From Pseudomonas sp. M30-35 (GTDB lineage: Bacteria > Pseudomonadota > Gammaproteobacteria > Pseudomonadales > Pseudomonadaceae): a DNA stretch of 64,000 bases. The notes under the pieces were generated by a model. It was not told where the DNA came from. It saw only the letters and a list, made by a program, of their open reading frames with translations, and ran no database searches. Positions 1,687 to 40,080 of the stretch are shown piece after piece (the stretch's first letter is position 1; each line of letters opens with the position of its first letter). The position numbers and the translations under genes are program-made. Where the stretch lies: positions 1,426,001 through 1,490,000 of the forward strand of contig NZ_CP020892.1 in NCBI RefSeq assembly GCF_002163625.1, given 5' to 3'.

Positions 1687-3267
1687 ATGGCTCATCCTGA
1701 TATTCACGCCCATCGCATCCTTATTCTGGATTTTGGCTCCCAGTACACTCAGTTGATCGCCCGCCGTGTGCGTGAGATCGGGGTTTATTGCGAACTGCAT
1801 CCGTTCGACATGAGCGATGACGAAATTCGCGCATTCGCGCCACGCGGCATCATTCTCGCCGGTGGTCCTGAGTCTGTTCACGAGGCGAATAGCCCGCGTG
1901 CGCCGCAAGCAGTATTTGAGCTTGGCGTACCGGTTCTGGGTATCTGCTACGGCATGCAAACCATGGCTGAGCAGATGGGCGGTAAAGTGCTCGGCTCCGA
2001 TGTGCGTGAGTTTGGTTATGCGCGTGTTGACGTAGTTGGCAAGGGTCGTCTGCTCGATGGTATCGAAGACCACATTGATGACGACGGTGTGTTCGGCCTT
2101 GATGTGTGGATGAGTCACGGCGATAAAGTGACCACCATGCCTGAAGGCTTCAGCGTTCTGGCGAGCACGCCAAGCTGCCCGATTGCCGGTATGTTCGACG
2201 ATGCGCGCGGTTACTATGGCGTGCAGTTCCACCCAGAAGTGACGCACACCAAGCAGGGCGGTCGTATCCTTTCGCGCTTCGTGCTCGATATCGCTGGCTG
2301 TGAAGCGTTGTGGACACCGTCGAATATCGTTGATGACGCCATCGCTCAGGTGCGTCAGCAAGTCGGTGATGCCAACGTCCTGCTCGGCCTGTCTGGCGGC
2401 GTTGATTCCTCGGTTGTGGCAGCGCTGCTGCACAAAGCGATCGGCGATCAACTGACCTGCGTGTTCGTTGATAACGGTTTGCTGCGTTTGCATGAAGGCG
2501 AGCAAGTCATGGCCATGTTTGCTGAAAACATGGGCGTTAAAGTGATTCGCGCCAATGCTGAAAAGCAATTCCTCGACAATCTGGCTGGCGAAGCAGATCC
2601 AGAGAAGAAACGTAAGATCATCGGTCGCACCTTTATCGACGTATTCGATGCGCAAGCCTCGAAGTTGGAAAACATCCAGTTCCTTGCTCAGGGCACCATT
2701 TATCCAGACGTGATCGAGTCTGCCGGAGCCAAAACCGGCAAGGCACACGTGATCAAATCGCACCACAACGTCGGCGGCCTGCCAGAGGAAATGAACCTCA
2801 AGCTGGTTGAACCACTGCGTGAACTGTTCAAAGACGAAGTGCGCAAGATCGGTCTTGAGCTGGGCTTGCCATTCGACATGGTTTACCGCCACCCATTCCC
2901 AGGCCCAGGCCTTGGCGTGCGTATTCTCGGTGAAGTGAAGAAGGAATACGCCGACCTGCTGCGCCGTGCGGATCACATCTTCATCGAAGAACTGCGTAAC
3001 TTCGACTGGTACCACAAGACCAGCCAGGCGTTCGTGGTATTCCAGCCGGTTAAATCAGTTGGTGTAGTCGGTGATGGCCGCCGTTACGCATGGGTTGTGG
3101 CATTGCGTGCAGTGGAAACCATCGACTTTATGACCGCACGCTGGGCGCACCTGCCTTACGAGCTGCTGGAAAAAGTCAGCAACCGCATCATCAATGAGAT
3201 CGAAGGCATCTCACGCGTCACCTACGACGTGTCGAGCAAGCCGCCGGCAACCATTGAGTGGGAATGA
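1687..3267 (+). CDS. guaA: GMP synthase (glutamine-hydrolysing)
   Basis: GuaA aminates XMP to GMP using glutamine and ATP. The 526-residue protein has the usual order: a class I glutamine amidotransferase domain (nucleophile Cys87 in GICYGM; FHPEVTH holds the His/Glu partners), then the ATP-pyrophosphatase domain with the SGGVDSS P-loop near residue 236, then the C-terminal dimerisation domain ending TIEWE. The ATG at 1687 follows a GAGAG motif. The 3' end of guaA is a known integration hotspot for genomic islands, and an accessory block starts right after it here. Confidence 0.98.
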
Positions 3268-3268
3268 G
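3253..3268 (+). other. Putative island attachment site at the guaA 3' end (left copy)
   Basis: The 16 bases ATTGAGTGGGAATGAG cover the last codons and stop of guaA. A 14/16 copy, which also reads I-E-W-E-stop, lies at 9772-9787. GAGTGGGA is identical in both. The direct repeat suggests site-specific integration into guaA, but no integrase gene is present to confirm it. Confidence 0.45.
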
Positions 3269-3305
3269 AGTATTTCTAACCAATTGATTTAGTTACAAAA
3301 AATAC

Positions 3306-3347
3306 ATGCCATTGATAGTGTTTTATACATTGTCAATGGCATTTTTT
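3306..3347 (+). terminator. Rho-independent terminator of guaA
   Basis: ATGCCATTGA (3306-3315) pairs perfectly with TCAATGGCAT (3333-3342), and six T residues end the structure (3342-3347). It closes the guaBA unit and separates it from the accessory genes. Confidence 0.8.
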
Positions 3348-3513
3348 ATGGTATCTAAAAAGTGAAAAATATTTAGCTTTGTTTTGTCGATAATTGGCCG
3401 GGGCTTTCTGTGTAATAGCCTGAATAAAAGATAGATTGGACACCAAATCAATTGCATCGACTTTGAGAATCTTGGAAGCTGTTTGAGGGACAAAGGATCC
3501 AAGGAGTAGAGCC

Positions 3514-5232
3514 ATGTCAACAGAAGGGCCATCGGTAGACGAGACGGAATTGGCTATGGAACTGCGCACACGTGGCTTGCTTCGGACTGTTGCGGGCCAC
3601 GGTAGTCGGTGTCTGGAAGATAAGCATTCTGCGTTGCTAAAGACGCTTGCAGCCATACTGAATGCTGCCGATGCGCCTCCGATTGACCTTTATATCGAAG
3701 AAGCGCTGGCGGAGTTAGAAGGACCTCGCTTCTTTATAGTCCAGCATTTTCTATGCGATCTGATACCTCTTCTGAACGTGAACCAGGACGTCCTTCTTAA
3801 ATTTATCACGCGTATGCTCGATGCGGGCGGTAACGATCTGGCTGCAGGTGCCCCAAGTACCGCTTTTGGGGAGTGGACAAAGAAAGATCCAGCAAGATCT
3901 TCCAAGGTCTATAAAGCAGCACGTACCGGCGATAGCCTCGCGCTACGTCAACTATGCACGGTTCTCCGGATGAACGCTGATATCGAGGAGGGCCTTATTT
4001 TCGTGCAAGCCCACGCGCGGGAAGCGAAGCTCGCAGCCATCTCGGCTTTGGGTGCTGTGGATCTAGGCGAACGCTACGGTGAGGTGCTCGTTACCTTGCT
4101 CCAGGGAGCGTCCAGCAATGATGAAGGCATCTCACTCCGGTCCCTCGAAGCGGGCTATCGCGCGGCTGCACAGCGAAAAACAGTTGCACCTGTCGGCTTT
4201 GATAAACAACTCGAACGGGTCCTTCAGACGAGGAGTCCCTTCGCGATTCACTTGGCAACGAACCTGTTGTGGATTCACCGAGTAGGTCTCACAGAAAACG
4301 CCTTGGGTCTGTGTCTTGATGCTGCTGCAGATGTTGACCCAGATAGCGCAGGCACGATTTCGCATATCGACCATGCCGCATATCAGCTTGTGGGTGCTGG
4401 GCATGCTGAAAAAGTGATCCGCCTGCTTAGTGAGTTATTTGATCGCTCAAAAGGTCGGATTACGCTGGACACGTTCCAGAGCACTTATCGCGCGCTGCAA
4501 GATGTCGGCTCTGAGGTGCTGGGCAGCGCAGTTGTGTATTGGCTCATGAACGGGAGTGCGCACACTCACCAATGCGTAGCTAACGAGGTTTGCGGCGTTG
4601 GAAACGATGACCCTCCTTTCTCCATCCCCACGTCATCTCTTCCAGTAGACCCATCGGATCAGCTGTTTCTCTGCCGGAAGGCTGTTGGATGGTTCTTTAT
4701 TGATCCGCTGTCTGCGGTTGTCATACCGTTAGCGGTGCTTCGTGATGGATCTCCGCAGATTGCAAATGACGTCCTCAATCTGATCTACGATCCTTTGCTC
4801 TTGAGCTATGGCGGCAAGCTGAAGGACTACCTTGAGCGCTATGTTGAGAGCATCCCGGTCCTTGCTGAATTGCTTGCACGAAAGAAGGTACTTCAGGATG
4901 CGATGGATGGCATTGAGCGTCTGGTTGAACTGCACCCTAGCGAAATGCAGCGCGAGACAGGGCGTGTTCAGTGGCACGACCAAATGGAGCGGAGTATGGA
5001 GCAGGGGCGTCGAAAATCTATTTTTGATGATCTCATCACTAAGCAGTACATCTTGTATGGCCGATCTTCGTTGACGCCGATCTATACCGGAGGGGACACC
5101 ACACATCTCACCGAGACTGCGATGCATTCGTTCTCAATCTCGTCCGAGCTGCCCATCCTCGATATCGTGGACCCAGTTGGACTCGATTATATGCTCGTCC
5201 ACTTCAGGCTTGAGCAGCGAGAACAGAAATGA
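3514..5232 (+). CDS. Unrecognised 572-residue helical protein, first gene of a coupled pair
   Basis: I do not recognise this family. The protein has no signal peptide or membrane segment and reads as mostly alpha-helical, with repeated leucine/alanine-rich helices that could form a HEAT- or TPR-like solenoid. The last ~100 residues are richer in charge and aromatic residues (QWHDQMERSMEQ, KSIFDDLITKQY) and may be a separate conserved module. No nucleotide-binding or nuclease motif was found. AAGGAG stands seven bases before the ATG. The stop overlaps the start of the next gene by four bases (ATGA), so the two are surely co-translated. The island position and nuclease-like partner suggest a defence or self-recognition role; this is inference. 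Confidence 0.85.
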   Translation: MSTEGPSVDETELAMELRTRGLLRTVAGHGSRCLEDKHSALLKTLAAILNAADAPPIDLYIEEALAELEGPRFFIVQHFLCDLIPLLNVNQDVLLKFITRMLDAGGNDLAAGAPSTAFGEWTKKDPARSSKVYKAARTGDSLALRQLCTVLRMNADIEEGLIFVQAHAREAKLAAISALGAVDLGERYGEVLVTLLQGASSNDEGISLRSLEAGYRAAAQRKTVAPVGFDKQLERVLQTRSPFAIHLATNLLWIHRVGLTENALGLCLDAAADVDPDSAGTISHIDHAAYQLVGAGHAEKVIRLLSELFDRSKGRITLDTFQSTYRALQDVGSEVLGSAVVYWLMNGSAHTHQCVANEVCGVGNDDPPFSIPTSSLPVDPSDQLFLCRKAVGWFFIDPLSAVVIPLAVLRDGSPQIANDVLNLIYDPLLLSYGGKLKDYLERYVESIPVLAELLARKKVLQDAMDGIERLVELHPSEMQRETGRVQWHDQMERSMEQGRRKSIFDDLITKQYILYGRSSLTPIYTGGDTTHLTETAMHSFSISSELPILDIVDPVGLDYMLVHFRLEQREQK

Positions 5233-6977
5233 AACTTGTCGTGATGCACTATCTGCGCTCGCTACGCGAGCGTGACGAACTCGACGCTATTCTGCCTGAT
5301 CTTTTGGCTGAGAGTGGTTTCGAAGTTCTAACTCGTCCTCGTCGTGGCACAGGGCAAGCTGGTGTCGACGTAGCGGCAGTCGGCCCTGACCCTGATCGTG
5401 ATGGAACTCGAAGTCTGTTCCTGTTCACGATCAAGTCCGGTGATTTGACGCGAGAGCATTGGGATACCGGCCAGCAAGCCGTACGACCGTCGCTGAATGA
5501 GGTTCTGGATGACTATATTCCGAACCGCATTCCGCCCCATTTTGCGGATCTGCCCGTCGTTATATGTGTCTGCATGGGCGGTGAGATGCGCGAGAATGTT
5601 CGGGCACAGTGGAGCGGTTACTGTCGGGCGCACGAGAAAGCCAACATTAACTTTGCCGAATGGAACGGGGATCGTCTTTCGGATCTGATCCTCAGCGGCA
5701 TGTTACGTGCTGAGTTAATTGAGAGTGAGAACCGGGGGCTGTTTCAGAAAGCGCTGGCAATGCTTGATCAGCCCGACGTTGCTTATCGGCATTTTCGCCA
5801 CTTGCTCAATGCTATTTTTATTGAGCCGAAGAGCCAGACAGAGCGCACGCGCCAGCTACGCAAGGCCTACCTGTGCCTTTGGATACTCTTTGTATGGGCT
5901 CGCGATGCCGATAACCTTGAGGCAGCGTATCGAGCATCCGAGCTGGTGCTCCTACGCAGCTGGCCTTACTGCGATAGTGCGCGTCTGCGCAAAGGAGCGA
6001 CGCAACAGGAGCGGCTAGCTCATTTCGATCAGGTCTTGAAGCTGCATCTGATCATTGCGCACCTTCTACTCGTCGAGAAGATTGGTCCGTTTGTCGACAA
6101 GCGCTACGCGCTTTCAATGGCCGTAAATTCACGCAACGCGGCAGACATTAACATCGCGCTGTTCGAGACGCTTGGAAGATTGTCTCTCCACGGACTATGG
6201 CTGGATGCTATGACTGCCGGGGAGGACGAGTCATTCGTGCAGGCAATGAGTGAAGCGGCGGACAAGGTGCTCAACATGGCGATCGGGATGCTGAACGCGA
6301 ATCCGGCGCTTGCCGTTCCCGTTCGTGACGATTTCACGATTGAACTGGCTCTGTTCATGCGTCTCGCAGACGTTCGCGGCCGCCTATCCAATGTTGCTGA
6401 TTACATCCGTATCATGTCCGACCGCCTATGCTACGGACTAAGTGCTCGGCGGCACTATCCGACGCCGACCACAGATTATCGAGATGTCCTCGTCCATCCG
6501 AGAGACCGCAGTGACGCTTACTTCGAAGAGCATACGCGTGCGGGGATTCTTTACACCTTCGTGCTCGCTTGGCTTGCGATGATAGGAGACCAGGAGCGAG
6601 CAGAGCGTTTGCGCAGCACGTTGTTAGAGCACGCTCCGCACATGACTCACCAAATCTGGATTCCCGACGCACGAACGGATGAGGTTTTCTGGGATGGTGA
6701 TCGAGATCATGGGGTGTCGGTACCAGGTCTGCCACTCAACGACTCACTAGAGGCCGTTTTTAGCCTACTGAACCGTGTGATGAGAGAGTATCCGCTGGAT
6801 GAGCGAATAAGCGCTGTCCGAAATCACCTGACTCCAATTTTTCTTATGGCCTGCCGTCACTATCGCATGCCTGTACCACCGCATATTTGGCAAGGCCAGA
6901 AGCGTTCAGCATCGAACAATACTACCTCCGCTCAAGCAGCATCGGATCCCGAAACGCAGCAGTCGCGAGGTGAGTAG
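5229..6977 (+). CDS. Protein with N-terminal PD-(D/E)XK nuclease-like domain and helical C-terminal part
   Basis: The 582-residue protein starts with a compact alpha/beta region resembling the restriction-endonuclease-like (Mrr/PD-(D/E)XK) fold: a helix with Glu28 (LLAESGFEV), then GVDVAAVG with Asp47, then a hydrophobic strand ending in TIKSG with Lys69. The usual Glu/Gln two residues before the lysine is Thr67, so catalysis needs proof. A strand-like LPVVICVCMGG (about 109-119) fits the same domain. Residues ~185-550 are helical and unrecognised; the tail is low in complexity (Ser/Thr/Gln). The start codon lies in the ATGA overlap with the upstream gene. A DNA-targeting effector working with its partner is the likeliest role, but no substrate can be inferred. 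Confidence 0.85.
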   Translation: MKLVVMHYLRSLRERDELDAILPDLLAESGFEVLTRPRRGTGQAGVDVAAVGPDPDRDGTRSLFLFTIKSGDLTREHWDTGQQAVRPSLNEVLDDYIPNRIPPHFADLPVVICVCMGGEMRENVRAQWSGYCRAHEKANINFAEWNGDRLSDLILSGMLRAELIESENRGLFQKALAMLDQPDVAYRHFRHLLNAIFIEPKSQTERTRQLRKAYLCLWILFVWARDADNLEAAYRASELVLLRSWPYCDSARLRKGATQQERLAHFDQVLKLHLIIAHLLLVEKIGPFVDKRYALSMAVNSRNAADINIALFETLGRLSLHGLWLDAMTAGEDESFVQAMSEAADKVLNMAIGMLNANPALAVPVRDDFTIELALFMRLADVRGRLSNVADYIRIMSDRLCYGLSARRHYPTPTTDYRDVLVHPRDRSDAYFEEHTRAGILYTFVLAWLAMIGDQERAERLRSTLLEHAPHMTHQIWIPDARTDEVFWDGDRDHGVSVPGLPLNDSLEAVFSLLNRVMREYPLDERISAVRNHLTPIFLMACRHYRMPVPPHIWQGQKRSASNNTTSAQAASDPETQQSRGE

Positions 6978-7107
6978 TCTTTGGTATGGTCGTTACTCAA
7001 ATTGGCGAAGACTGAATGCCACAAAGGCACAGACAATGGTAGATCCTTATTTGTGGTGGACGATTGCAACATGAGCTAACAAAATCTGCCACTAGGCCGG
7101 TGATGTG

Positions 7108-7138
7108 TTTCATGGCGCGCTAAGGGCGTGCCATGAAA
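7108..7138. repeat. 13-bp hairpin between the nuclease-like gene and the XRE regulator
   Basis: TTTCATGGCGCGC (7108-7120) pairs with GCGTGCCATGAAA (7126-7138) with one G:T wobble and a five-base loop. The converging genes end on both sides, so it could stop transcription from either, but neither strand has a U-tract in the right place. It could also be the end of a lost mobile element. Confidence 0.5.
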
Positions 7139-7196
7139 AAACGGCGATTCCATGTTCGGGTATGCACTCTCAGTATCAAGTGTGGCTGTGGGAGCT

Positions 7197-8000
7197 TCAG
7201 TGACTGGCTTGTTCCGCGAAGTACACCACCATCCTGAGATGCCGGTGTTCATCCACCACTAGCGTCTCATGGCGAAAGTCCTTTCGCTCGCTATCGGTAG
7301 TCAGGACAGACCCGATTCCACGCCGCGCTTCGTCACTATCCTGTGTCTCCCACCAGCGCCGAAAGTCGGCCGACAGAACCTTCAAATCTTCGACCAATGC
7401 CAGCATGGGCGGATCGTTCGGTGCCACGGCGAAGTCGTAACGGAACTGCGCCAGCAATTTGGGCGCATCGTCTCGCCAGGTAGGAAGGCGCCGTCGCATG
7501 TCGGGATCGGCAAACACCATGCGCAAGATATTGCGTACCTTACGATTCCGGGCCTTGAACCCGAACAAATCATCGGCCGCCGCATTCCAGGCAATGACAT
7601 CCCAGTGCAAATTGAGCACATAGGCGGGCCTTGTCGCCAAATCGTCCATCAGCTGTTGGATGAGTGGCGTGATCGATACCAATTGATGGGCCTGTGGTGG
7701 CGGTGGCCGATTGTGGGCCAGAAGAAACAGGTGGCTGCATTCGGCGTCATCGAGCTTGAGTGTGTAAGCCACGCTTAGCAGGAATTTCTCTGAGACCTGA
7801 ACGTCCCGTCCCTGTTCGAACCAGGTGTACCAGGTGAGTCCTACCCCAGCCAGCGCTGCAACTTCTTCCCTTCGCAGGCCCGGTGTTCGACGCGTCCCGT
7901 GAGAGGGCAGGCCGACATCGGCTGGGGTCAGTTTTTTGCGGTGCCGGGTCAGGAACTCCGATAACTCGTTCTTGGTGCGCCTGAGGCTGCGTTCGGCCAT
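7197..8000 (-). CDS. XRE-family helix-turn-helix regulator with MmyB-like ligand domain
   Basis: The 267-residue protein starts MAERSLRRT. An N-terminal HTH of the XRE type (about residues 8-75, with RRTPGLRREEVAALAGVGLTW typical of the MmyB-like group) is followed by a C-terminal region matching the MmyB ligand-binding type (DVIAWNAAADDLFG). AAAGG precedes the ATG at 8000; an upstream in-frame start at 8030 is less likely because it lies beyond the operator-like palindrome. It diverges from an MFS exporter gene 105 bases away, so it most likely controls that gene and itself. The inducer cannot be read from the sequence. Confidence 0.9.
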   Translation of the reverse strand: MAERSLRRTKNELSEFLTRHRKKLTPADVGLPSHGTRRTPGLRREEVAALAGVGLTWYTWFEQGRDVQVSEKFLLSVAYTLKLDDAECSHLFLLAHNRPPPPQAHQLVSITPLIQQLMDDLATRPAYVLNLHWDVIAWNAAADDLFGFKARNRKVRNILRMVFADPDMRRRLPTWRDDAPKLLAQFRYDFAVAPNDPPMLALVEDLKVLSADFRRWWETQDSDEARRGIGSVLTTDSERKDFRHETLVVDEHRHLRMVVYFAEQASH

Positions 8001-8002
8001 GA

Positions 8003-8021
8003 CTATTACCTTTTGTAATAG
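8003..8021. promoter_or_regulatory. Palindromic operator candidate between regulator and exporter
   Basis: CTATTAC and GTAATAG form a perfect 7-bp inverted repeat around CTTTT. It covers the ribosome-binding region of the minus-strand regulator and lies 85 bases before the exporter start. A related GTAAT follows at about 8038. It is a natural binding site for the adjacent XRE regulator. Confidence 0.5.
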
Positions 8022-8105
8022 GATAAACACTTAAATTGTAATGTGATGATATTGCTTTGACAATGTGCTTTCCGCAACCCGTCCGAACGAATCCGGAGGT
8101 GACTT

Positions 8106-9677
8106 TTGACTGCACTTGGCGATTCATCCCCCACTACCGAAAGGCTTCAGGTGCATGCTGATGCCGTCGAGAGATGCGCGGGTGCCCGCGAATGGATTGG
8201 GCTGGGCCTGCTTGCGCTGCCGACCATTCTGCTCGGGCTTGACCTGACGCTGTTGCATCTGGCGTTGCCAGCACTGGCAGTGGATCTGCGTCCGACGAGT
8301 GCGCAGGCACTCTGGATCGTCGATATCTATGGCTTCATGATTGCCGGCCTTCTCATCACGATGGGAACGCTGGGTGATCGCATCGGGCGGCGCAAGTTAC
8401 TCATGGTTGGCGCGGCCGCTTTCGGGGTTGCCTCCGTGATGGCGGCCTATTCGACCAGTGCCAATATGCTGATTGCCGCGCGTGCCGTGCTGGGTGTGGC
8501 GGGTGCGACGTTGATGCCATCGACGCTGGCGTTGATCAGCAACATGTTTGCCCGTCCCGAGCAGCGCGCGTTGGCCATTGGGGTGTGGGCGACGATGTTT
8601 GCGCTGGGCATGGCGGCTGGCCCCGTGGTGGGTGGCATCCTGCTTGAGTATTACGGATGGGGGGCAGCATTTCTCGTAGCGCTGCCGGTCGTCGCGCTTT
8701 TGTTGGTGGCTGCGCCGTTTCTCCTGCCAGAGTACCGTGCTCCGCAACAAGGGCGGCTGGATCTGCCCAGTGTCGCGTTGTCGTTGCTTGCCTTGCTGCC
8801 GATCGTTTACGGCATCAAGCAGCTCGCGAAAGATGGGATAGGGGCCGGTGCCACGCTGATTATCGTGGGAGGACTGGTCTTCATGACGCTGTTCATCCGG
8901 CGGCAGCGCCAATTGAGCAGCCCTTTGATCGACCTCGGCCTGTTCTCCAGTCGGGCATTCAGCGTTGCCTTGCTGGTGCTCTTGGTTGGCCTGGTCGGTG
9001 TCGGCGGTACGATGTTGCTAGTGACCCAGTATCTGCAATTGGTGGTGGGCTTGTCACCGTTTGAGGCTGGGTTATGGATGGGGCCACCAGCACTCGCCAT
9101 GTTAGTGGCGGGTATTACAGCACCACTGCTTGCAAGGCGAGTCCGGCCAGGCTATGTGATCGCAGGAGCGCTGGGGCTATCCGTAGTGGGCTATCTGATG
9201 TTGACTCAACTCGATCATGCGCCTCATGGGATTGTGCTGGTAACGGCATCGTTTTCTCTGGTTTATCTCGGTCTGGGCACCATTGCCGCACTGGGAACAG
9301 ATCTGGTGGTGGGGGCTGCACCCGCTGAAAAATCAGGATCGGCCGCAGCCATGTCGGAGACGGTACAGGAGCTTGGGCTGGCTGTAGGTATTGCCACGCT
9401 GGGCAGCCTGACGACCAGCCTCTATCGCATCAGGATGACCGATCAAGTCAGCGTCCCAATGGCGCAGGACGTTCAACGCGCAGTATCGGACAGTCTTGCA
9501 GGAGCCAAGTCGGTGTTGCAGGAGTTGCCTGCTGGTATGTTGGAGCAGGCGCAAGCCGCTTTCATGGTGGGGTTCAACGTAGCGGCGGCAACCAGCGCCA
9601 TCAGCATCGCTATCCTGGCTGGACTGGCAGCGATCACATTGCGACATATTGGTGTTGGTGGGGAGCTGACGAAATGA
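8106..9677 (+). CDS. MFS drug exporter, DHA2 family (14 TMS, QacA/SmvA-like)
   Basis: A 523-residue inner-membrane proton antiporter of the 14-helix DHA2 group. Diagnostic stretches are LDLTLLHLALPALA in helix 1, WIVDIYGFMIAGLL, and motif A GDRIGRRKLL between helices 2 and 3; these match the QacA/SmvA subgroup, which exports cationic biocides and dyes. Translation probably starts at TTG 8106, since GGAGG lies six bases upstream and no ATG is in place. It is single and divergent from an XRE regulator, a common arrangement for inducible efflux. Substrates are inferred from the subfamily only. Confidence 0.9.
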   Translation: MTALGDSSPTTERLQVHADAVERCAGAREWIGLGLLALPTILLGLDLTLLHLALPALAVDLRPTSAQALWIVDIYGFMIAGLLITMGTLGDRIGRRKLLMVGAAAFGVASVMAAYSTSANMLIAARAVLGVAGATLMPSTLALISNMFARPEQRALAIGVWATMFALGMAAGPVVGGILLEYYGWGAAFLVALPVVALLLVAAPFLLPEYRAPQQGRLDLPSVALSLLALLPIVYGIKQLAKDGIGAGATLIIVGGLVFMTLFIRRQRQLSSPLIDLGLFSSRAFSVALLVLLVGLVGVGGTMLLVTQYLQLVVGLSPFEAGLWMGPPALAMLVAGITAPLLARRVRPGYVIAGALGLSVVGYLMLTQLDHAPHGIVLVTASFSLVYLGLGTIAALGTDLVVGAAPAEKSGSAAAMSETVQELGLAVGIATLGSLTTSLYRIRMTDQVSVPMAQDVQRAVSDSLAGAKSVLQELPAGMLEQAQAAFMVGFNVAAATSAISIAILAGLAAITLRHIGVGGELTK

Positions 9678-9771
9678 AGCCCTGATGGCTAATGGTGTCG
9701 CGGTTCAAAGAGTTAATCGGGACATTAGAAGCCAGGCTCCTCACTGCATACGTTTGGTTGGATTGTTGATA

Positions 9772-9787
9772 ATCGAGTGGGAGTGAG
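9772..9787 (+). other. Putative island attachment site (right copy of the guaA end)
   Basis: ATCGAGTGGGAGTGAG differs from the guaA 3' end (3253-3268) at two positions, both synonymous (ATT/ATC, GAA/GAG), so it encodes the same I-E-W-E-stop. This pattern is expected if an element integrated at guaA or if a foreign guaA end was carried in. The next upstream codons do not resemble guaA. Confidence 0.4.
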
Positions 9788-10214
9788 GTCATGTCCTTCG
9801 GTGGCTATCGCCGACCCGCAAAATAAGTTGGCGGTAGAGCTGACCGCAAGCAATCCAGAGTTCCAGCGCTTGTCAGTGGAGCTGTAAAGAATGCGAATGG
9901 CGTGCGCGCCTGCGGGAATCTGCTTCTGTACGGCGAGGGCTTCGCCGATGCGCCTGGATTCGACAAGGACAAGTGGCCTGATATGCAGGACTCCGACCTG
10001 GAGTAAGGAAACCCATGCTTACTACGGCACGACGCCGAATGTGGATGACCGGTTTTAGGACGACCTGCTAGGCCAGAGTTCAGGCGCAGGCCGATTTTGC
10101 GGTTGTCGGTGAAGGTCGGCTGCAGGTCGAGGATGTCGTCGCCGCGCTGGCCCGGCAACCCGGGAGTGGTTTTGTCAGCGGTGAATAACCCCGGATGGCA
10201 TACGAGCTACCAAA

Positions 10215-10247
10215 AATGCCGTTCACTTGGCTTAAGTGAACGGCATT
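10215..10247. repeat. Perfect 14-bp inverted repeat
   Basis: AATGCCGTTCACTT (10215-10228) and AAGTGAACGGCATT (10234-10247) are exact reverse complements around a five-base loop. It lies downstream of the proline-racemase gene on its strand and may end that operon; it could equally be a leftover insertion-sequence end. A few A residues (10212-10216) would give a short U-run for minus-strand transcription. Confidence 0.55.
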
Positions 10248-10337
10248 GCACCGCATGGACGAGCCTTTGGGTTCGGTATGGGCGATGCCAGAACGGAAGC
10301 GAGCTGCCGACACCTACCAGTCCCTTTTGGGGGGAGG

Positions 10338-11351
10338 TCAGTTGACCACGAAACCAGCGCCTATCGGGTCGTTGCGCTCGATCACCCAGCGCGAGGTGCC
10401 GAGGATGCTGGCGGTGCCCTTGACGGTTGGGCGCAAGGCGCGCGTGCCGTTGAGGTCGACCTCGCCGAGCAGGCAGCCTTCGAAGGTACCGCTGCCAAGC
10501 AGGCCCTCGGATAGGATCGGCTGGTTCAGGCCGAGTCTGCCCCGCGCCTCGAACATAGCCATCATGGCGCTGGTACCGGTGCCGCCGGGGGAGCGGTCGA
10601 GTTGGCCGGCGCTGAAGACGTGGACGTTCTTGTAGAACGCGCCCTCGATGGTCGCCGGGTGCCAGAAGGTGATGAAGTTGAGGTCGTTGATGTGAGCCTC
10701 GGTCGGGTGCTGGATCTTCAGCTGTTTCTGGATCTGCTCACGGGCCAGCAGGCCGAGGCGCGATAGTTCGCTGCCATTCTCCGGACTGATGCGCAGCGCG
10801 CAGTCGCTCAGGTCGATGATGCCGAAGTAGTTGCCGCCCCAGACCAGGTCGGCCTTCAGCTCGCCATAGCCGGGCAGATGCACCGGGATGTCTTGCGCGG
10901 CGACATAGGCCGGCACGTTCTCGAAGCGGGTCCAGAGCACTTTATCGCCTTCCGAGGCCACTTCGGCCACGACCAGGCCCGCGGTGGTTTCGAAGCGGAT
11001 TTTGGTGATGCCATCGGCGCCGCGTGGCACTAGGCCCAGGGCGACCATCGCCATGCTCACTGCGATGGTGCCGTGGCCGCACATGTGCGAATACACGCTG
11101 CCGTCCATGTAGATCAGGCCGGCGTCGAACTCACGACTGGACGGCGGGGTGAGGAAGACCCCGAACATGTCCTTGTGGCCGCGCGGCTCCTGCATCAGCG
11201 CCTTGCGCAGCCAGTCGTAATTCTGCTCGAGAAAGGCCCGTTTCTCCAGGATGCTGGAGCCGGCCGGGTAGGGAATGCCGCTGTGCACGATGCACAGGGG
11301 TTCGCCTTCGGTATGGGTATAGATGACATCGAACGTGTCTTGCATGCGCAT
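10338..11351 (-). CDS. Proline racemase-family protein (hydroxyproline epimerase/dehydratase-like)
   Basis: A 337-residue member of the proline racemase superfamily, whose enzymes racemise proline, epimerise 4-hydroxyproline or dehydrate trans-3-hydroxyproline. The first catalytic residue is present (Cys91 in HMCGHGT). The second site reads DRSPGGTGT, with Gly256 where racemases and epimerases have Cys and the dehydratases have Thr, so the reaction cannot be assigned. AGGAG stands seven bases before the ATG at 11351. The gene is last in a run with a PotABCD-like importer; import followed by isomerisation or dehydration of an amino- or imino-acid is likely. Confidence 0.88.
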   Translation of the reverse strand: MRMQDTFDVIYTHTEGEPLCIVHSGIPYPAGSSILEKRAFLEQNYDWLRKALMQEPRGHKDMFGVFLTPPSSREFDAGLIYMDGSVYSHMCGHGTIAVSMAMVALGLVPRGADGITKIRFETTAGLVVAEVASEGDKVLWTRFENVPAYVAAQDIPVHLPGYGELKADLVWGGNYFGIIDLSDCALRISPENGSELSRLGLLAREQIQKQLKIQHPTEAHINDLNFITFWHPATIEGAFYKNVHVFSAGQLDRSPGGTGTSAMMAMFEARGRLGLNQPILSEGLLGSGTFEGCLLGEVDLNGTRALRPTVKGTASILGTSRWVIERNDPIGAGFVVN

Positions 11352-11386
11352 GACTGAACTCCTGGCTTGCGGGATGTTTGAGGGGG

Positions 11387-12175
11387 TTATTTGCGTTCTG
11401 ACAAAAGGTCGAGACCGATGCACAGATCGAGGGCGATGACGGCCACCACGACAACCAGAATGGTGGCGCCGGAAGCGGCCGCGATCGTCGGGTCGACGGT
11501 GTATTGCACATAGTTGAAGAGCTTGACCGGGATGGTGTTGAGGTCCGGGGTGGTGTTGAAGATCGACAATTCCACGTTGATCCACGACGCGATGAAGGCA
11601 AAGATCGACCCGGTGACGAGCCCCGGCCGAATCTGCGGCAGGACCACCAGCCAGAAGGTTGCCCACGGGGGGGCGCCCAGGTCGCTGGAGGCTTCTTCCA
11701 GGGCGCGTTGTTCAGGGGTCAGCATGGACAGCACCGAGCGCAGAACGAAGGGCGAAACGATGATGGTGTGGCCGATCAATAGCGCGAGAAAGCTGCGGGT
11801 CAGGCCGAAGTAACCACCGAATTGCAGCAGCGCCGCACCCAGCACGATGTGCGGAAACACCAGCGGCGAGGTCAGGGCGGCGACGATCGTGCCTTTGCCG
11901 GCGAACTCGTAGCGCGCCACCGCCAGCGCGGCAGGCACGCTGAGCAGCACCGCGACGACTGTCGCCGCCAGGGCGAGCACGGTGCTGGTGGCAAAGGAGG
12001 CGACGTAGCTCGGGTCGCCGAGCATTTGCCGATACCAGTCCAGGGTCCAGCCCTGGGGTGGGAAGGCGAGAAACGACGAGGCGGTGACAGACGCGCCGAG
12101 AATCACCACCAGCGGCAGCAGCATGTAACCGAGAACGGCCCAGGAAATCAGTCGAATCAGCAGGCGAGTGATCAT
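11387..12175 (-). CDS. ABC transporter permease, PotC type
   Basis: A 262-residue inner-membrane protein with about six transmembrane helices and the EAA loop (EEASSDLGAPPWATFWLVVLP) that contacts the ATPase. It resembles the PotC subunit of polyamine/opine/amino-acid-derivative importers. It overlaps the other permease by four bases and is part of the five-gene unit running on the minus strand from 15131 to 10338. Substrate not determined. Confidence 0.92.
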   Translation of the reverse strand: MITRLLIRLISWAVLGYMLLPLVVILGASVTASSFLAFPPQGWTLDWYRQMLGDPSYVASFATSTVLALAATVVAVLLSVPAALAVARYEFAGKGTIVAALTSPLVFPHIVLGAALLQFGGYFGLTRSFLALLIGHTIIVSPFVLRSVLSMLTPEQRALEEASSDLGAPPWATFWLVVLPQIRPGLVTGSIFAFIASWINVELSIFNTTPDLNTIPVKLFNYVQYTVDPTIAAASGATILVVVVAVIALDLCIGLDLLSERK

Positions 12176-13008
12176 TGGCCGCTCCCGCGGACACTGCCGG
12201 CACGCCCGGCGAGTCCGATCATTACCAGGGTGAAGACCAGCAGCACGACGCTCAGCGCGCCGCCGTAGTTGAAGTCGAAGACCGAACTGTACTGCTGGAA
12301 GATCAGCATCGAGAGCACCGAAATGCGTCCGCCCGACAACAGCGCCGGGGTCACGTAGGCGCTGGCCGCCAGAGTGAACACCATGATCGAGCCGGAAATG
12401 ACCCCCGGCATGGTCAGCGGCAGAACGACGTGGAAAAAGGTGGCCCGTGGGCTGGCGCCGAGATCCTCGGAGGCTTGTTCGTAGCCCGGGTCGACCTGCG
12501 CCAAGGCATTGCCTGCGGCGAGCACGGTGAATGGCAGGAGGATGTAGACCATGCCGATGAGGATGCCGAGCTCGGTGCCCAGGAAGCGCACCGGCGTGTC
12601 CACCAGGCCCGTTTCCAGCAGGCTCTGGTTGACCAGGCCGTTACGCCCCAGCAGCACCATCCAGCCGAACGAGCGGACGATATTGCTGGTGAACATCGGC
12701 ACTACCAGCAGGATCACGCAGGCGCGGCGCCAGGCGCGCCACTTGACCACGCGCACCAGGTACCAGGCGAGCGGGTAGCCGAGCAACAGAGAGACTAGGG
12801 TGGTCAGCGCGGCGATGCGAAAGGTCACCAAAATGACATCCCAGTGGTACTGATCGGCCAGCACCCGGACATAGTGCTCGAGGGTAAAGGCCTGGTCGGT
12901 CGCCGTGGTCAGGCTGGCGAAGATCACCACGGCGAACGGCGCGAGAAAGAACGCGGTGAAAAACGCCAGTGCCGCGGAGAGCATCAGGATCGGGGCCGGT
13001 CGTTTCAT
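12172..13008 (-). CDS. ABC transporter permease, PotB type
   Basis: A 278-residue membrane subunit with N-terminal and multiple further hydrophobic helices and an EAA loop (EQASEDLGASPRATFFHVVLP). It pairs with the PotC-type permease downstream as a heterodimer. Four-base overlaps with both neighbours indicate tight translational coupling. The coding sequence is visibly richer in G and C than guaA or tadA, like the whole cassette. Confidence 0.92.
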   Translation of the reverse strand: MKRPAPILMLSAALAFFTAFFLAPFAVVIFASLTTATDQAFTLEHYVRVLADQYHWDVILVTFRIAALTTLVSLLLGYPLAWYLVRVVKWRAWRRACVILLVVPMFTSNIVRSFGWMVLLGRNGLVNQSLLETGLVDTPVRFLGTELGILIGMVYILLPFTVLAAGNALAQVDPGYEQASEDLGASPRATFFHVVLPLTMPGVISGSIMVFTLAASAYVTPALLSGGRISVLSMLIFQQYSSVFDFNYGGALSVVLLVFTLVMIGLAGRAGSVRGSGQ

Positions 13009-14069
13009 ACCGGCTCCCCCACCAGATGCAGGTGGGCTGGGTTGAAAGCCAGGTGCACGGCGCCACCAACAACCAGATCGGCGCGTGGAAAGCCCATAGT
13101 CCGGGCGACGATCGCCTGCCCGTTGACCAAGGTATGAATCAGGGTATGGCTGCCGACGGTGACGATATCCGTCACCGTTCCGGCCAGCTTGCAGCAGGCG
13201 CTCTCCGGGTTGGCCGTATCCAGCACCTGCAGGTGCTCGGGCCGCAGGATGGCCACGCCCTGTGGCGGGATATCCCGGCCTCCGCAGGAAAGCGGCTGGT
13301 CCCCGACCGTCAGGCGGATTTCACCGGCACCGGCGGCTCTATAGTCGATAAGGTTGGCCTCGCCGATGAAGTCCGCGACGAAGCGCGAGGCTGGTGCGCT
13401 GTAGATCGCGCTGCTTGAGCCGACCTGCTCGAGGCGCCCGGCGTTCATCACCACGATGCGGTCGGCGATGGTCATCGCTTCTTCCTGATCATGAGTGACG
13501 AAAATGAAGGCGATGCCGAGCTTGGCCTGGAGGTGCTTCAGCTCCAACTGCATGCGCTTGCGCAGTTTCATGTCCAGCGCCGAGAGCGGTTCGTCGAGCA
13601 ACAGCAGCTTTGGCCGATTGACGATAGCGCGGGCCAGTGCCACGCGTTGCTGCTGCCCACCAGACATCCCCCGGGGAAAACGCTCTTCCAGTGCTTCCAG
13701 GCCGACCAATGCAAGTGCCTGGCGAGCGAGTTCGCGCGCTTCCGAGCGCTTGATGCCCTGGCGTCTTGGACCGTAGGCGACGTTTTCCAGTACGCTCATG
13801 TGGGGAAACAGCGCGTAGTTCTGGAAGACCGTATTCAGCGGGCGGCGATAGGGTGGCAGGCGGCTGACATCCTGCCCCTCGATCACGATGCTGCCGGAGT
13901 CCGGCTGCAGGAAGCCGGCGATCGAGCGCAGCAGGGTGGTCTTGCCGCAGCCGCTGGGGCCGAGCAGGACGATGAACTCGCCCTGCTCGATGTCCAGATG
14001 AATATCGTCCAATACCTGGAAGGCCCCAAAGCTTTTGCAGACGCTTTCTATGCTCAACAAAACTGACAT
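13005..14069 (-). CDS. ABC transporter ATP-binding protein, PotA type
   Basis: The 354-residue ATPase energises the importer. It shows Walker A GPSGCGKTT (about residue 37), signature motif MSGGQQQRVALARA, Walker B LLLLDEPLSALD and the switch histidine in FVTHDQEEA. The C-terminal ~110 residues fit the TOBE regulatory domain found in the spermidine/putrescine group. It overlaps the next gene by four bases. The substrate class (polyamine, opine or betaine-like) is inferred from subfamily. Confidence 0.93.
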   Translation of the reverse strand: MSVLLSIESVCKSFGAFQVLDDIHLDIEQGEFIVLLGPSGCGKTTLLRSIAGFLQPDSGSIVIEGQDVSRLPPYRRPLNTVFQNYALFPHMSVLENVAYGPRRQGIKRSEARELARQALALVGLEALEERFPRGMSGGQQQRVALARAIVNRPKLLLLDEPLSALDMKLRKRMQLELKHLQAKLGIAFIFVTHDQEEAMTIADRIVVMNAGRLEQVGSSSAIYSAPASRFVADFIGEANLIDYRAAGAGEIRLTVGDQPLSCGGRDIPPQGVAILRPEHLQVLDTANPESACCKLAGTVTDIVTVGSHTLIHTLVNGQAIVARTMGFPRADLVVGGAVHLAFNPAHLHLVGEPV

Positions 14070-14084
14070 TGCAGACCTCTTGAG

Positions 14085-15131
14085 CTAGTTGCCGATGACT
14101 TTGCGGTTCCAGTCATCGGTGACATCCGCGCGGCGCGCGTTGATCTGGCCCCAATCGAACAGTCGCAGGTTGTCGATGGAACCATTCACGCCCCATGGCA
14201 GCTTGCGGGCCACGTCTGCGGACACGGTCACGCCCTTGACCGCGGGGCCCAGGTAGAGTTTGCTGGCAAGGCAAGAGGAAGCTTCCTGGGTCAGTGCGGT
14301 ATTGATGAACTGCTCTGCTGCCTTGTTGTTGCGCGCGCCCTTGATCAGATGTAGGCGCGCGTCGGTGGCCCAGACGCCTTCCTCAGGGATGGTGAAGCCG
14401 ATGGGGACGCCCTTGTCGATCAGGTCCCAGGCGCCGACGTTGAAGTGGGCACCGATGATTGCTTCGCCACTCTGGAAGGCGTTGGTCGCGGCGCCCGAGC
14501 TGTCAAAGAACAGCGCCGTGTCCAGCGCTCCAAGCTTGCTGTAGAGCGGCGCGAGATCGGCCGGGTCCACGTCCCAGACGTCCGCCAGGAAGAACACGAA
14601 TGGCACGCCGGACGAGTTGGCGGGCGACGGCAGGGCGATGGCTCCGGCGAATTCCGGTTTCCACAGATCTTTCCAACTGGTGGGTGCCTGGGGTACTTCC
14701 TTGGTGTTGTAGGTCAGGCCAAGTGAGTAGAAGCCTGAGCTGACGGCAAAGGTGTGACCGTCGCTGGAGTAGACGGCTTGATCCAGCACGTTGCGCAGGT
14801 TGGGAATGGCTGTCGGGTCGAGGTCGGCTAGTACGCCTGCTGCGTAGGCGAGTTCACTGATGCCGCCATCCATCCAGGCCACGTCGATGGTCGGGCTGTC
14901 TTTCTGTTGCTGGAGTTTCGCCAGGGTGGTGGTCGAGGTGCCGATTTCCGCGGCTACTGCAATCCCGGTCTCGCGGGTGAAGGGCTCGGCGACGCAGCTG
15001 AGGAAGGCTTCGCCCCAATTGCCGCCGTACAACGCAACGGTTAGTTTCTGTTGGGCCATGGCGCCTGGTGAGGAGATGCAGCCCGCGAGCAAGAGCGCGA
15101 CTGTGATTTCGTTACGAGTCTTCAGTCTCAT
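14085..15131 (-). CDS. Periplasmic substrate-binding protein, PotD type
   Basis: The 348-residue protein carries an N-terminal export signal ending near AMA-QQ; LLAGC could instead act as a lipobox, so it may be soluble or a lipoprotein. The mature part begins KLTVALYGGNWGEAF, typical for PotD-like binding proteins of the type II fold. It is the first gene of the importer operon and lies 108 bases from the divergent GlxA-type regulator. The bound solute is unknown; the proline-racemase-family enzyme at the end of the operon points to an imino or amino acid. Confidence 0.92.
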   Translation of the reverse strand: MRLKTRNEITVALLLAGCISSPGAMAQQKLTVALYGGNWGEAFLSCVAEPFTRETGIAVAAEIGTSTTTLAKLQQQKDSPTIDVAWMDGGISELAYAAGVLADLDPTAIPNLRNVLDQAVYSSDGHTFAVSSGFYSLGLTYNTKEVPQAPTSWKDLWKPEFAGAIALPSPANSSGVPFVFFLADVWDVDPADLAPLYSKLGALDTALFFDSSGAATNAFQSGEAIIGAHFNVGAWDLIDKGVPIGFTIPEEGVWATDARLHLIKGARNNKAAEQFINTALTQEASSCLASKLYLGPAVKGVTVSADVARKLPWGVNGSIDNLRLFDWGQINARRADVTDDWNRKVIGN

Positions 15132-15239
15132 GTCATGTCCTCCAGGGGAGTGATGTTGTTATTTCCCCTTGTCTACATCTTGCTCGTCACGCCGCTACGG
15201 GGCTTGCATTGTGGGGTCTTTTAGTTGAATAGTTGGGTC

Positions 15240-16265
15240 ATGTTGAACATGACCCCGATCGACAACCCGTCTCCTGAGTCCGCTCAAGGCGCGGGTGGCC
15301 GCGCTCAACTTTCGGTGGGCCTGGTTCTGCTGGATCAATTCACCCTGGCCGCGTTTTCCTGTTTCGTGGATGTTCTGCGCCTGTCCGCCGATCTGGGCGG
15401 CGGCAGTCGGCAGATCCATACCGCCTGGCGGGTGATGAGCGTCGACGGGCGGCCGCGAACCTCCAGCGCGGGGATCGTCCTCGAGGTCGCCAGCGCTCTG
15501 GCGGAGGACCCAGGTGAGTTCGACTACGTGGCCATCTGTGGCGGCAACGACTATCCCAATACCCACCTGCCCAAGAGTCTGCTCGACTGGGTGCGCCGTG
15601 CCGCCGACAGCCGTGCGCGGCTGCTGGGCATTTGCACCGGGACTTTCGCCTTGGCCCAGGCGGGCGTGGTCGGCAGCCGTTCGGTGTGCGTGCACTGGAA
15701 CGTGCTGGACGACTTTCGCGCACGCTTTCCAAAGACCCGTGCAGCGGTGGATCACCTGTTCATCGACGAGGGCGACCTGATCACCTGCGCCGGCTCCACG
15801 GCGGCGATCGATCTGGGCTTGTACTTGGTGGCCCGGCATTGCGGTCGGGAAAAGGCCCTGCAAACCGTGCGGCACATGATGCTGCAGGGTATTCGCCAGG
15901 GCCGACAGCCCCAGGCCCACTTCTATGCAGATCTGGCTGGCATCAAGGATGAGCGGGTGCGCCAGGCCGCGCACTACATCGAGCAGCGCATGGACAGCCT
16001 GCCCACCCTGGATGCCATTGCCCGCTACGTGGGGCTTGGGCGGCGGCAGCTGACGCGGGCGTTCCAGCATGCGCTCGGCATATCGCCTATGGAGTTCCAG
16101 CGCTCGCTGCGTATCGAGTACGGTAGTTGGCTGCTGGTGAACAGCCACAGCAGCATCACCCAGATCGCCATGGATTGCGGCTTTTCCGATTGCGCGCATT
16201 TCTCCCGCGAGTTCCGTGGGCGCTTCGGCATGTCCCCTCGCCAGTTCCAGCGGCAGGGACGATAA
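15240..16265 (+). CDS. GlxA/AraC-family transcriptional regulator
   Basis: The 341-residue protein has a DJ-1/PfpI-like N-terminal sensor domain (about 20-190, with GICTGTFALAQAG at the nucleophile elbow) and a C-terminal AraC-type pair of helix-turn-helices (about 240-340, ending GMSPRQFQRQ). This combination occurs in regulators of glycine betaine, carnitine and amino-acid catabolism in Pseudomonas. It is divergent from the ABC/racemase operon and probably activates it. The ATG at 15240 is chosen; 15249 or a TTG at 15225 are possible and none has a strong ribosome site. Confidence 0.9.
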   Translation: MLNMTPIDNPSPESAQGAGGRAQLSVGLVLLDQFTLAAFSCFVDVLRLSADLGGGSRQIHTAWRVMSVDGRPRTSSAGIVLEVASALAEDPGEFDYVAICGGNDYPNTHLPKSLLDWVRRAADSRARLLGICTGTFALAQAGVVGSRSVCVHWNVLDDFRARFPKTRAAVDHLFIDEGDLITCAGSTAAIDLGLYLVARHCGREKALQTVRHMMLQGIRQGRQPQAHFYADLAGIKDERVRQAAHYIEQRMDSLPTLDAIARYVGLGRRQLTRAFQHALGISPMEFQRSLRIEYGSWLLVNSHSSITQIAMDCGFSDCAHFSREFRGRFGMSPRQFQRQGR

Positions 16266-16552
16266 CCCCTCGGGGCGTCGGGTGTGTTGCTTGGTTCGCT
16301 GGCAATCGACCAGCTATCCATGGACGGTGCTCAAGGGGGGCAAGCCCGTCCCGCTCGCCACATGGGCGCTGCAGTTCCGCCACAGGCTGCCGACCTGCCT
16401 GCCGTGCAATGGAAGCTGATCAACCTTAGCAAGTTGCGAGACGAGAATCCTGGCAAGCACGCAGAGCAGAGGCGTTTTCTGACGGCGTTGCCAGGATAGA
16501 GCGAGCGCGTTGCTGCTTGTCTGCGATGTTCAGGTTGATCGTGAGATGCGCT
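16266..16552. other. 287-base gap between converging genes, no gene seen
   Basis: Short open frames in all directions are shadows without ribosome sites. A small CCCC-TC-GGGG hairpin follows the regulator stop. Nothing else can be supported. Confidence 0.5.
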
Positions 16553-17446
16553 TTAACCGGGCCCATCGCTGGCAGCTGCCAGCAGAGGCACGATCAGATC
16601 GCCGATAGGCGTAGGAATACCGCGAGTTTGAGCGCAGCGTTGGATGACTCCATTGCGGCAGTCCCATTCCAGCGGTTGGCCCGCGAGTCGGTCGACGAGG
16701 ATCGAGGTGCCTTGGTCTGCCGGGTAGCGACGAAATACGTCGATGATATCTTGCGGCACGTCGTCGCTTAGTACTGCGCCTTCCGCGCGAGCCACTTCAA
16801 GGCATTCGCGCAGATAGGCCAGAGCCAGTTCGGTGATGTCGGCTCGGGCGAACATACCTGCACGTCGGCCAGTCAAAACCATCAAGCCAGCCGCCGCGTT
16901 TTGTAGAAGCTTGCGCCATGCGATGGAGGTGAAGTCCGATGACACCTCGACAGAACACAAAGTGCCTCTCAACGCTTTAACCACGAGCTCGGTCGCTTGA
17001 GTGTCCGGCAAGGTGAGCCGGGCTTTGGCGCGCAGCCATACCGAGGCGTCCGGTTCGCGCTGAGCAGGAAACCAAACGACTGCTGGCAATACGGGGCAGC
17101 CTGACAAATACGGCTCGATCAGGGCTTTTTGTTCAACGCCGTTTTGCAGTACGCAGACCACGGTTTTCGCGCTGCACAGTGCAGAAAGCCAAGGTGCTAT
17201 TGCTTCAATCTGGGTTGACTTGACCGCGACGAATACCAGGTCGAAGGTGTTTTGGGTCTCTGTCGGGTCAGTCAGCACGGGCCCCGGCACCACAATATTG
17301 CCGCCCTTGTAGCGAAGTTCCAACTGCTCGTACGCTGTGCGACCACAAACCGTCGGCGTGCGCCCGACCTCATGCAGCGCCGCCGCGATGGTCGTGCCGA
17401 TTGCTCCGGGGCCAATGAGGGCGATGGTTGGATTGTCAGGCATCAT
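16553..17446 (-). CDS. Ketopantoate reductase (PanE/ApbA) family oxidoreductase
   Basis: The 297-residue protein begins with a Rossmann motif (IALIGPGAIGTTIA) and has the family's C-terminal helical domain (about 170-290) with a conserved lysine in AWRKLLQNAA. Family members reduce 2-dehydropantoate with NADPH; many paralogues in accessory regions act on other 2-oxo acids, and this gene has no pantothenate neighbours, so no symbol is given. AGGA precedes the ATG at 17446. Upstream in-frame starts to 17491 lack a ribosome site. It ends the accessory block. Confidence 0.88.
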   Translation of the reverse strand: MMPDNPTIALIGPGAIGTTIAAALHEVGRTPTVCGRTAYEQLELRYKGGNIVVPGPVLTDPTETQNTFDLVFVAVKSTQIEAIAPWLSALCSAKTVVCVLQNGVEQKALIEPYLSGCPVLPAVVWFPAQREPDASVWLRAKARLTLPDTQATELVVKALRGTLCSVEVSSDFTSIAWRKLLQNAAAGLMVLTGRRAGMFARADITELALAYLRECLEVARAEGAVLSDDVPQDIIDVFRRYPADQGTSILVDRLAGQPLEWDCRNGVIQRCAQTRGIPTPIGDLIVPLLAAASDGPG

Positions 17447-17791
17447 GGTTATTATCCTGTTTTGATCGTCATTATCTGCTCTGACAACCATGCAGCCCCG
17501 GCCCGTCTAGATCAAGTATTAAGCTGTGGCGTGTGCTCGCGCGACGTGTCTAAGTGCGGCATGCATTTATGGATGTCAGTCGCGTAAACGCTCGGTTTTC
17601 GGATGTGGTGTTTGTTCACTCGGTCTTGCGGCCTGGGCCGTGATAAAATCAGCGGATCGCCGACTGAAGTGATTTGTGGCAACACAGCAGTTTGTTGTAA
17701 CCCTTAAAATAGAAGACGTTTTCCAGAGAGGAAACGCTGTAAACCGTTGCCTGATGGGCTCGAAATGATTGGCTATTAGGAGCCCATTTGT
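17447..17791. other. 345-base intergenic region, right edge of the accessory block
   Basis: No gene is seen. It must hold promoters for the divergent reductase and multicopper oxidase genes; a possible -10 (TTAAAAT, about 17704-17710) lies 85 bases before the oxidase. An imperfect hairpin CGTTTTCC-AGAG-AGGAAACG lies at about 17718-17738. Composition here is host-like, so the junction with the accessory block probably lies in or just left of this segment. Confidence 0.4.
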
Positions 17792-39183: not shown

Positions 39184-40080
39184 ATGCCGACGCTAGAACA
39201 TCAACTGATCGACCGATTCCTTGAAGCATTATGGTTCGAAAAAGGCCTTTCTGTGCACACTCGCGATGCATATCGGAGTGATTTAGCGCACTTCAATGCC
39301 TGGCTCGATTCGCGTGGTTTGGCGCTAGAGTCGGCTGGCCGCGATGTGATTCTGGATCACTTGGCCTGGCGCCTGAATGAAGGTTACAAGGCGCGTTCTA
39401 CTGCACGGTTTTTATCGGGCTTGCGTGGCTTCTACCGGTATTTATTGCGTGAAGGAATGATTAGCCAAGACCCGACCCTGCAGATCGATTTGCCTCAATT
39501 GGGCCGTCCTTTACCTAAATCGTTATCCGAGGCCGACGTTGAGGCGCTGCTGGCCGCGCCTGAGCTGGATGACCCCATTGGCTTGCGCGATCGTGCCATG
39601 CTTGAGGTGCTCTACGCCTGTGGCTTACGGGTGACCGAGTTGATTAGCCTGACGCTCGAACAGGTTAATCTGCGTCAAGGTGTACTCCGGGTATTTGGTA
39701 AGGGCAGCAAGGAGCGGCTGGTGCCGTTGGGCGAGGAAGCGATTCTATGGATTGAGCGCTACGTCAAAGAGGCGCGAGCGTTTTTGCTCGATGGCAAGCC
39801 GAGTGATGTGCTGTTTCCCAGCTCCCGTGGTGAGCAAATGACCCGCCAGACCTTTTGGCATCGCATCAAGCACCAAGCCAAGGTCGCCGGCATCGCTAAA
39901 TCATTGTCACCGCACACGCTCAGGCATGCGTTTGCCACGCACTTACTCAATCATGGTGCCGACCTGCGCGTGGTGCAAATGCTGCTGGGCCACAGCGATC
40001 TATCGACCACACAAATTTACACGCACATTGCCCGTGCCCGCCTCCAGGAGTTGCATGCGGTTCATCATCCACGCGGATAA
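39184..40080 (+). CDS. xerD: Site-specific tyrosine recombinase XerD
   Basis: XerD with XerC resolves chromosome dimers at dif under FtsK control. The 298-residue protein has the core-binding SAM-like N-terminal domain and all catalytic residues: Arg149, Lys173, His244, Arg247, His270 and Tyr279. It lies upstream of dsbC, the usual chromosomal place, so it is the housekeeping enzyme and not an island integrase. The ATG at 39184 is chosen on family length; the ribosome site is weak. Confidence 0.97.
   Translation: MPTLEHQLIDRFLEALWFEKGLSVHTRDAYRSDLAHFNAWLDSRGLALESAGRDVILDHLAWRLNEGYKARSTARFLSGLRGFYRYLLREGMISQDPTLQIDLPQLGRPLPKSLSEADVEALLAAPELDDPIGLRDRAMLEVLYACGLRVTELISLTLEQVNLRQGVLRVFGKGSKERLVPLGEEAILWIERYVKEARAFLLDGKPSDVLFPSSRGEQMTRQTFWHRIKHQAKVAGIAKSLSPHTLRHAFATHLLNHGADLRVVQMLLGHSDLSTTQIYTHIARARLQELHAVHHPRG

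Follow-up and report, generated by a model that had tools for sequence, protein, structure and literature searches.

The 64,000-nucleotide stretch of Pseudomonas sp. M30-35 analysed here (contig NZ_CP020892.1, positions 1,426,001 to 1,490,000; in the following, the window) carries directly downstream of guaA two overlapping genes that are, judged by their profile matches, a full-length copy of Olokun, i.e., of an already named anti-phage system. The genome comprises 4.93 Mb in a single contig. A preliminary description of the same DNA had reported two genes of 572 and 582 residues with an ATGA overlap, which the open reading frames (ORFs) confirm:

3514..5232, plus strand: oloA, 572 amino acids (aa), ATG start; predicted helical solenoid of HEAT/ARM type with a small tail at the C-terminus
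5229..5232, plus strand: ATGA, in which the oloA stop overlaps the oloB start
5229..6977, plus strand: oloB, 582 aa, ATG start; nuclease-like N-terminal domain followed by a helical C-terminal part

OloA matches the PADLOC model PDLC03925 (OloA) with 345 bits (E 2.4e-103; residues 30-570 of 572 vs. 31-595 of 596), and OloB matches PDLC03926 (OloB) with 644 bits (E 6.7e-194; residues 1-556 of 582 vs. 1-552 of 556). Since both matches are nearly full length, we assign the pair to Olokun. The gene layout is also that of the system (adjacent, co-directional, oloA then oloB), and no feature was found that distinguishes the pair from it. PADLOC lists no further family for either protein at E <= 1, Pfam gives nothing near its cut-offs, NCBIfam a single match at chance level, and PHROGs no match. 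That is, the earlier statements that the system is undescribed and that neither protein belongs to a nameable family do not hold, and for the suggested alternative of an interbacterial module we found no evidence. The proposed defence module of a nuclease-like protein with a large helical partner, on the other hand, is supported by PADLOC as well as by the gene neighbourhoods given below. That the pair holds no toxin, ATPase or reverse transcriptase is correct, but this does not make it unusually simple, as Olokun usually consists of two genes.

Olokun was reportedly named and tested by Millman and colleagues in 2022. Among the text passages available from later work, one counts the system in E. 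coli islands and cites an earlier paper for it (PMC10121019), a table groups it with systems of validated or predicted nuclease activity (PMC10855318), a 2025 paper describes it as not thoroughly characterised (PMC12592470), and a 2026 review gives its mechanism as unknown (PMC12926258). A literature search under the names OloA and OloB showed nothing relevant among the matches listed.

Both proteins have many relatives. Protein database searches at E <= 1e-3 (scoring, per search, the 7,994 or 7,996 candidates with the most words in common) returned at least 1,671 relatives of OloB and at least 95 of OloA. A scan of genome contigs with an OloB alignment confirmed 126 relatives, of which we used the best 80. 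Surveying their neighbourhoods, as had been suggested, we find an OloA-profile match at 80/80 OloB loci, always in the order oloA-then-oloB. Given this recurrent order and the number of relatives, both ORFs are beyond chance. The two genes overlap in 77 of the 80 loci, with a spacing of exactly -4 in 66 and of -13 in six (the latter reflects an earlier OloB start picked by the ORF caller), while the three remaining loci have gaps of 78, 304 and 1,329. On a Tolypothrix plasmid (L096), oloA and oloB are separated by ISAs1-family transposase genes (5808-6895), with a NACHT gene and an integrase nearby.

The distribution of Olokun is patchy. OloB is present in 8/398 genomes of the phylum and 6/199 of the genus (the window's genome counted in both), and none of 35 same-genus relatives shows a DNA match over oloAB. 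OloA adjoins OloB in ten of the 12 non-window loci of the two surveys; of the other two, the genus match L109 is a remnant of both genes and L104/L112 is of another type. Identity of the window's OloB to loci from genomes of another gammaproteobacterial family is 33-34% (L128, L129, L131) or 29% (L130), while database proteins named Klebsiella quasipneumoniae, Pelagibacterium and Rhizobium are 84-90% identical, which suggests transfer between classes. Searched by blastn against complete E. coli genomes, the window pair gives no match. A pair resembling that of L128, which belongs to the window's OloAB family, is present in 14/5,426 of them with about 71% DNA identity to L128; queries with L129 and L131 give short partial matches (14 each), and L130 none. 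No OloB was found in phage records by tblastn.

Structure prediction, likewise suggested in the preliminary description, was run for each protein. For OloA, the AlphaFold2 (AF2) model (predicted local distance difference test, pLDDT, 88.4; predicted template modelling score, pTM, 0.80) is a helical solenoid, and the OloA profile matches HEAT/ARM-type chains in the PDB (best E 5e-13), whereas the single sequence gives weak matches only. Foldseek and VIA also back this listing. OloA is thus predicted to be a HEAT/ARM-type solenoid, in line with the helical, solenoid-like protein described before, with a beta hairpin modelled at lower confidence in its C-terminal tail (about residues 518-536).

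For OloB, the AF2 model (pLDDT 88.4, pTM 0.85) shows a PD-(D/E)XK-like topology at the N-terminus, and VIA agrees on a nuclease-like core followed by a helical part. The relevant positions are:

5229..5708, plus strand: PD-(D/E)XK-like core of OloB, residues 1-160 (from DSSP of the AF2 model and residue counts)
5367-5369, plus strand: codon of D47
5427-5429, plus strand: codon of T67, which occupies the position of the (D/E)xK acid
5433-5435, plus strand: codon of K69

Conservation was assessed in two alignments (A3/A4) of 68 of the 80 loci, the window and 18 or 12 database proteins; eight loci with genes in pieces or a start shifted in the ORF calls and, for size, four close ones are omitted. 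Extending 87 of these rows by 12 more, three of which repeat loci already included, gives 99 rows. E14, D19, D47 and K69 are invariant in 99/99 rows. None of the 99 has the acid of the (D/E)xK motif, its position being occupied by S (55), T (27), V (11), L (2), I (2), C (1) or A (1). Thus, OloB has the core fold of the PD-(D/E)XK superfamily as well as the conserved first acid and lysine (D47, K69), but in contrast to the FokI cleavage domain, the MspJI catalytic domain and AF1548 it is without the acid two residues before the lysine. For this reason we call it PD-(D/E)XK-like instead of a canonical member, such that the earlier claim stands for the topology but not for the motif. By sequence, OloB matches neither PD-(D/E)XK nucleases nor other families in Pfam or the PDB. 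For the helical C-terminal part, a 14-3-3-like fold was considered and dropped, and the respective VIA rows (designed helical repeats, 14-3-3, others) were rejected as relationships; absence of a family from the VIA lists was not treated as exclusion.

A short OloA of 300-301 aa occurs in four records (L094, a Klebsiella plasmid; L110, a genome of the window's genus; L111, another genome; and L134). In L094, L111 and L110 the protein matches the C-terminal part of the PADLOC OloA model only (360-589, 415-586 and 392-585 of 596), and its gene overlaps a full-length oloB. The subtype is rarer than the full-length type. A pair with 93% DNA identity to the Klebsiella one is present in 2/5,426 complete E. 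coli genomes, and 21 plasmid records (one viewed) hold its OloB type, matched by the N-terminal 245 residues. Since it keeps the C-terminal half of OloA only, OloB seems to require just this half. Two other explanations of the short form were rejected. A 392-aa gene upstream of the Klebsiella short OloA is not taken as a split-off N-terminal half, as the genes found upstream are not the same in L110, L111 and E. coli ET350, and the constant length in four records argues against a broken gene.

We also scanned the surroundings of oloAB for defence genes. The 144 nearest ORFs (of 154 within 1.5 kb and below 1,500 aa; five large ones and the list's final five were left out) match 406 PADLOC models at E <= 1e-10, compared to 31 models for 129 ORFs located beyond 5.5 kb; because PADLOC models overlap heavily, these figures give a direction and not a gene count. 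Among individual loci, CBASS-type genes adjoin oloAB on a Sulfitobacter plasmid, Gabija and the short subtype are about 3 kb apart on the Klebsiella plasmid, phage tail genes adjoin the pair in the one full-length E. coli locus viewed (of 14), and a CHAT-domain gene adjoins it in the one short-subtype E. coli locus viewed (of two). The Rhizobium plasmid locus viewed, with its mainly metabolic neighbours, speaks against this trend.

From sequence and models we infer a sensor-plus-nuclease mechanism, to which we give somewhat better than even chances. OloA and OloB would form a complex in which OloA holds OloB via its better conserved C-terminal half, while its fast-evolving solenoid would sense a phage protein (or structure). 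Sensing would free or align the nuclease-like domain of OloB, which would then cut nucleic acid with the help of D47, K69 and an acid of the first helix region, i.e., E14 or D19 may replace the missing (D/E)xK acid. Cutting would block phage multiplication or kill the infected cell. A possible but rather doubtful variant is a toxin-antitoxin or abortive-infection unit, in which OloB is a toxic nuclease that is inactive with OloA and released on infection. It would fit the tight overlap of the two genes with the putative binder first, the large solenoid partner and the patchy distribution; yet no toxin family is matched in Pfam, PADLOC, NCBIfam or PHROGs, and an antitoxin as large as OloA would be unusual. 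This reading overlaps with the sensor-plus-nuclease explanation. We consider it unlikely that OloB has degenerated into a non-cutting nuclease that binds nucleic acid or OloA, the pair blocking phage through binding alone. Such a loss would account for the acid missing in all 99 rows and for the weak Foldseek support for a nuclease, but four invariant residues (E14, D19, D47, K69) are unusual for a dead site, and some PD-(D/E)XK enzymes place the acid elsewhere or replace it.

Two further readings concern the identity of the pair. PADLOC models may lump two unlike pairs under the name Olokun, such that the window pair would be a sister of the tested one. Such lumping is suggested by a pair of 851 and 481 aa in L112 (G144:C1; 7191-8633 and 8614-11166, minus strand), which scores 153 and 172 bits with the OloA and OloB models while the profiles of the window's family do not recognise it (OloA 8.8 bits on the 851-aa, OloB -2.9 bits on the 481-aa protein). 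By eye, an ITDL...IELK stretch at the end of the 481-aa protein resembles the canonical D...ExK motif. That the name misleads for the window is nevertheless improbable: at 345 and 644 bits its proteins score well above the L112 pair and match over nearly their whole length, the model lengths of 596 and 556 suit its type, the E. coli pair resembles L128 of its family, and the 481-aa protein is found in only its own genome of 199 plus one partial plasmid match. Least of all do we expect the pair to be island cargo with a role in DNA repair or maintenance instead of defence. Nuclease-like folds occur in repair too, but the PADLOC identity, the defence neighbours and the patchy presence (with one remnant in the genus) make this very improbable.

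The preliminary description had also placed the pair on an island at the guaA end. This is supported by attachment-site-like (att-like) repeats, and oloAB indeed looks like part of a small mobile unit, bracketed as follows:

1687-3267: guaA, directly upstream of oloA
3253..3267, plus strand: att-like core ATTGAGTGGGAATGA, identical with the 3' end of guaA
3306..3352, plus strand: terminator-like hairpin between guaA and oloA, 16 pairs with a T-rich tail
7197..8030, minus strand: MmyB-like regulator (Pfam MLTR_LBD and HTH_31), cargo of the unit
8106..9677, plus strand: MFS transporter (Pfam MFS_1, E 7e-44), cargo of the unit
9772..9786, plus strand: att-like core ATCGAGTGGGAGTGA, the second copy and proposed right boundary of the unit

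The 15-base pattern ATNGAGTGGGARTRA, which was defined after copies from related loci had been seen, has only these two copies in the window and none in 100 shuffles; a third core is not found in the window. Its 8-base word GAGTGGGA, which alone is unsurprising in 64 kb, occurs twice, both on the plus strand (one copy in the 3' end of guaA, the other at 9775). The bracketed unit measures 6,519 bp and holds oloAB, the regulator and the transporter. No integrase is among these four genes (Pfam, PADLOC); in the whole genome Pfam gives six integrase matches, of which one falls in the window, near 39,520. By reading, an AAGGAG stretch immediately precedes the oloA start. Between guaA and oloA no sigma-70-like promoter is detected (0 vs. 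3.3 in shuffles), and the hairpin evidence is weak, with two such sites in the region compared to 3.2 in shuffles.

According to the available part of PMC9376610, GAGTGGGA at the guaA 3' end is the insertion site of GIsul2, whose integrase also mobilises a CR2-sul2 unit. The window unit likewise has the word at this place and the core repeated on its other side, but its cargo differs. As it is without an integrase of its own, we do not file it as a GIsul2-type island.

Comparable arrangements are found elsewhere. Of the 80 loci, 64 of which include 7 kb or more of sequence before oloA, ten have guaA upstream within 10 kb and on the same strand; seven of these ten are Halomonas and near kin, so they are not independent. 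The 15-base pattern has 16 copies in the 80 loci, all on the oloAB strand, namely at ten guaA ends, two partial guaA copies and four other sites. L002, L005, L015 and L017 carry a GAGTGGGA copy 138-177 bp beyond the oloB stop, and in L002 an integrase gene comes right after this copy. Bracketed units of 5.0 kb (L015), 4.6 kb (L017) and 9.1 kb (L009) are observed, as well as one of 4.0 kb with a looser second core (L016); the seven other ORFs examined there, with the L004 counterpart standing in for a 526-aa ORF of L009, show no Pfam integrase. A 526-aa ORF downstream of oloAB at 12161-13738 in both L004 and L009 is a possible recurrent companion; that of L004 has no Pfam match. Partial second guaA 3' ends near oloAB (L006, 7835-8008; L009, about 17015; L016, 11579-11959) form a pattern that repeated insertion at guaA could leave.

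We further compared the guaA site in six same-genus genomes (L116-L121). In L116, only 157 bp separate guaA from the counterpart of the gene at window position 17792 (oxidase-like, named by reading), so window positions 3268-17791 are extra. For L118, L120 and L119 the unmatched stretch after guaA measures 0.9, 3.1 and 8.8 kb, respectively, while L117 and L121 show no counterpart of 17792 within the roughly 18 kb of guaA region compared. Since the insert size differs among these genomes, the site is variable. Beyond the bracketed unit, a further 8 kb (9787-17791) missing from L116 has a GC content of 62% compared to 55% elsewhere and holds, by reading, ABC-transporter and racemase-like genes.

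A more specific picture, which we hold tentatively and at slightly less than even chances, is that Olokun travels as a compact integrase-less att-oloAB-att cassette (4.0 to 9.1 kb, sometimes with a few extra genes) that integrases of other guaA elements would move into and out of the guaA 3' end; that OloB would be a nuclease with a displaced catalytic acid; and that the short subtype would show that the N-terminal sensor half of OloA can be shed. We found no paper with both 'Olokun' and 'guaA' in a search that mostly did not extend to subscription literature. As far as our searches go, it is new that OloB lacks the usual acid, that a subtype with a short OloA occurs and that the guaA unit has no integrase.

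The candidate for an undescribed system is thereby settled as a named one. For its mechanism, the residues E14, D19, D47 and K69 together with the absence of the usual acid provide handles, and the natural half-OloA subtype may separate docking from sensing. Finally, guaA is a likely route by which Olokun spreads.
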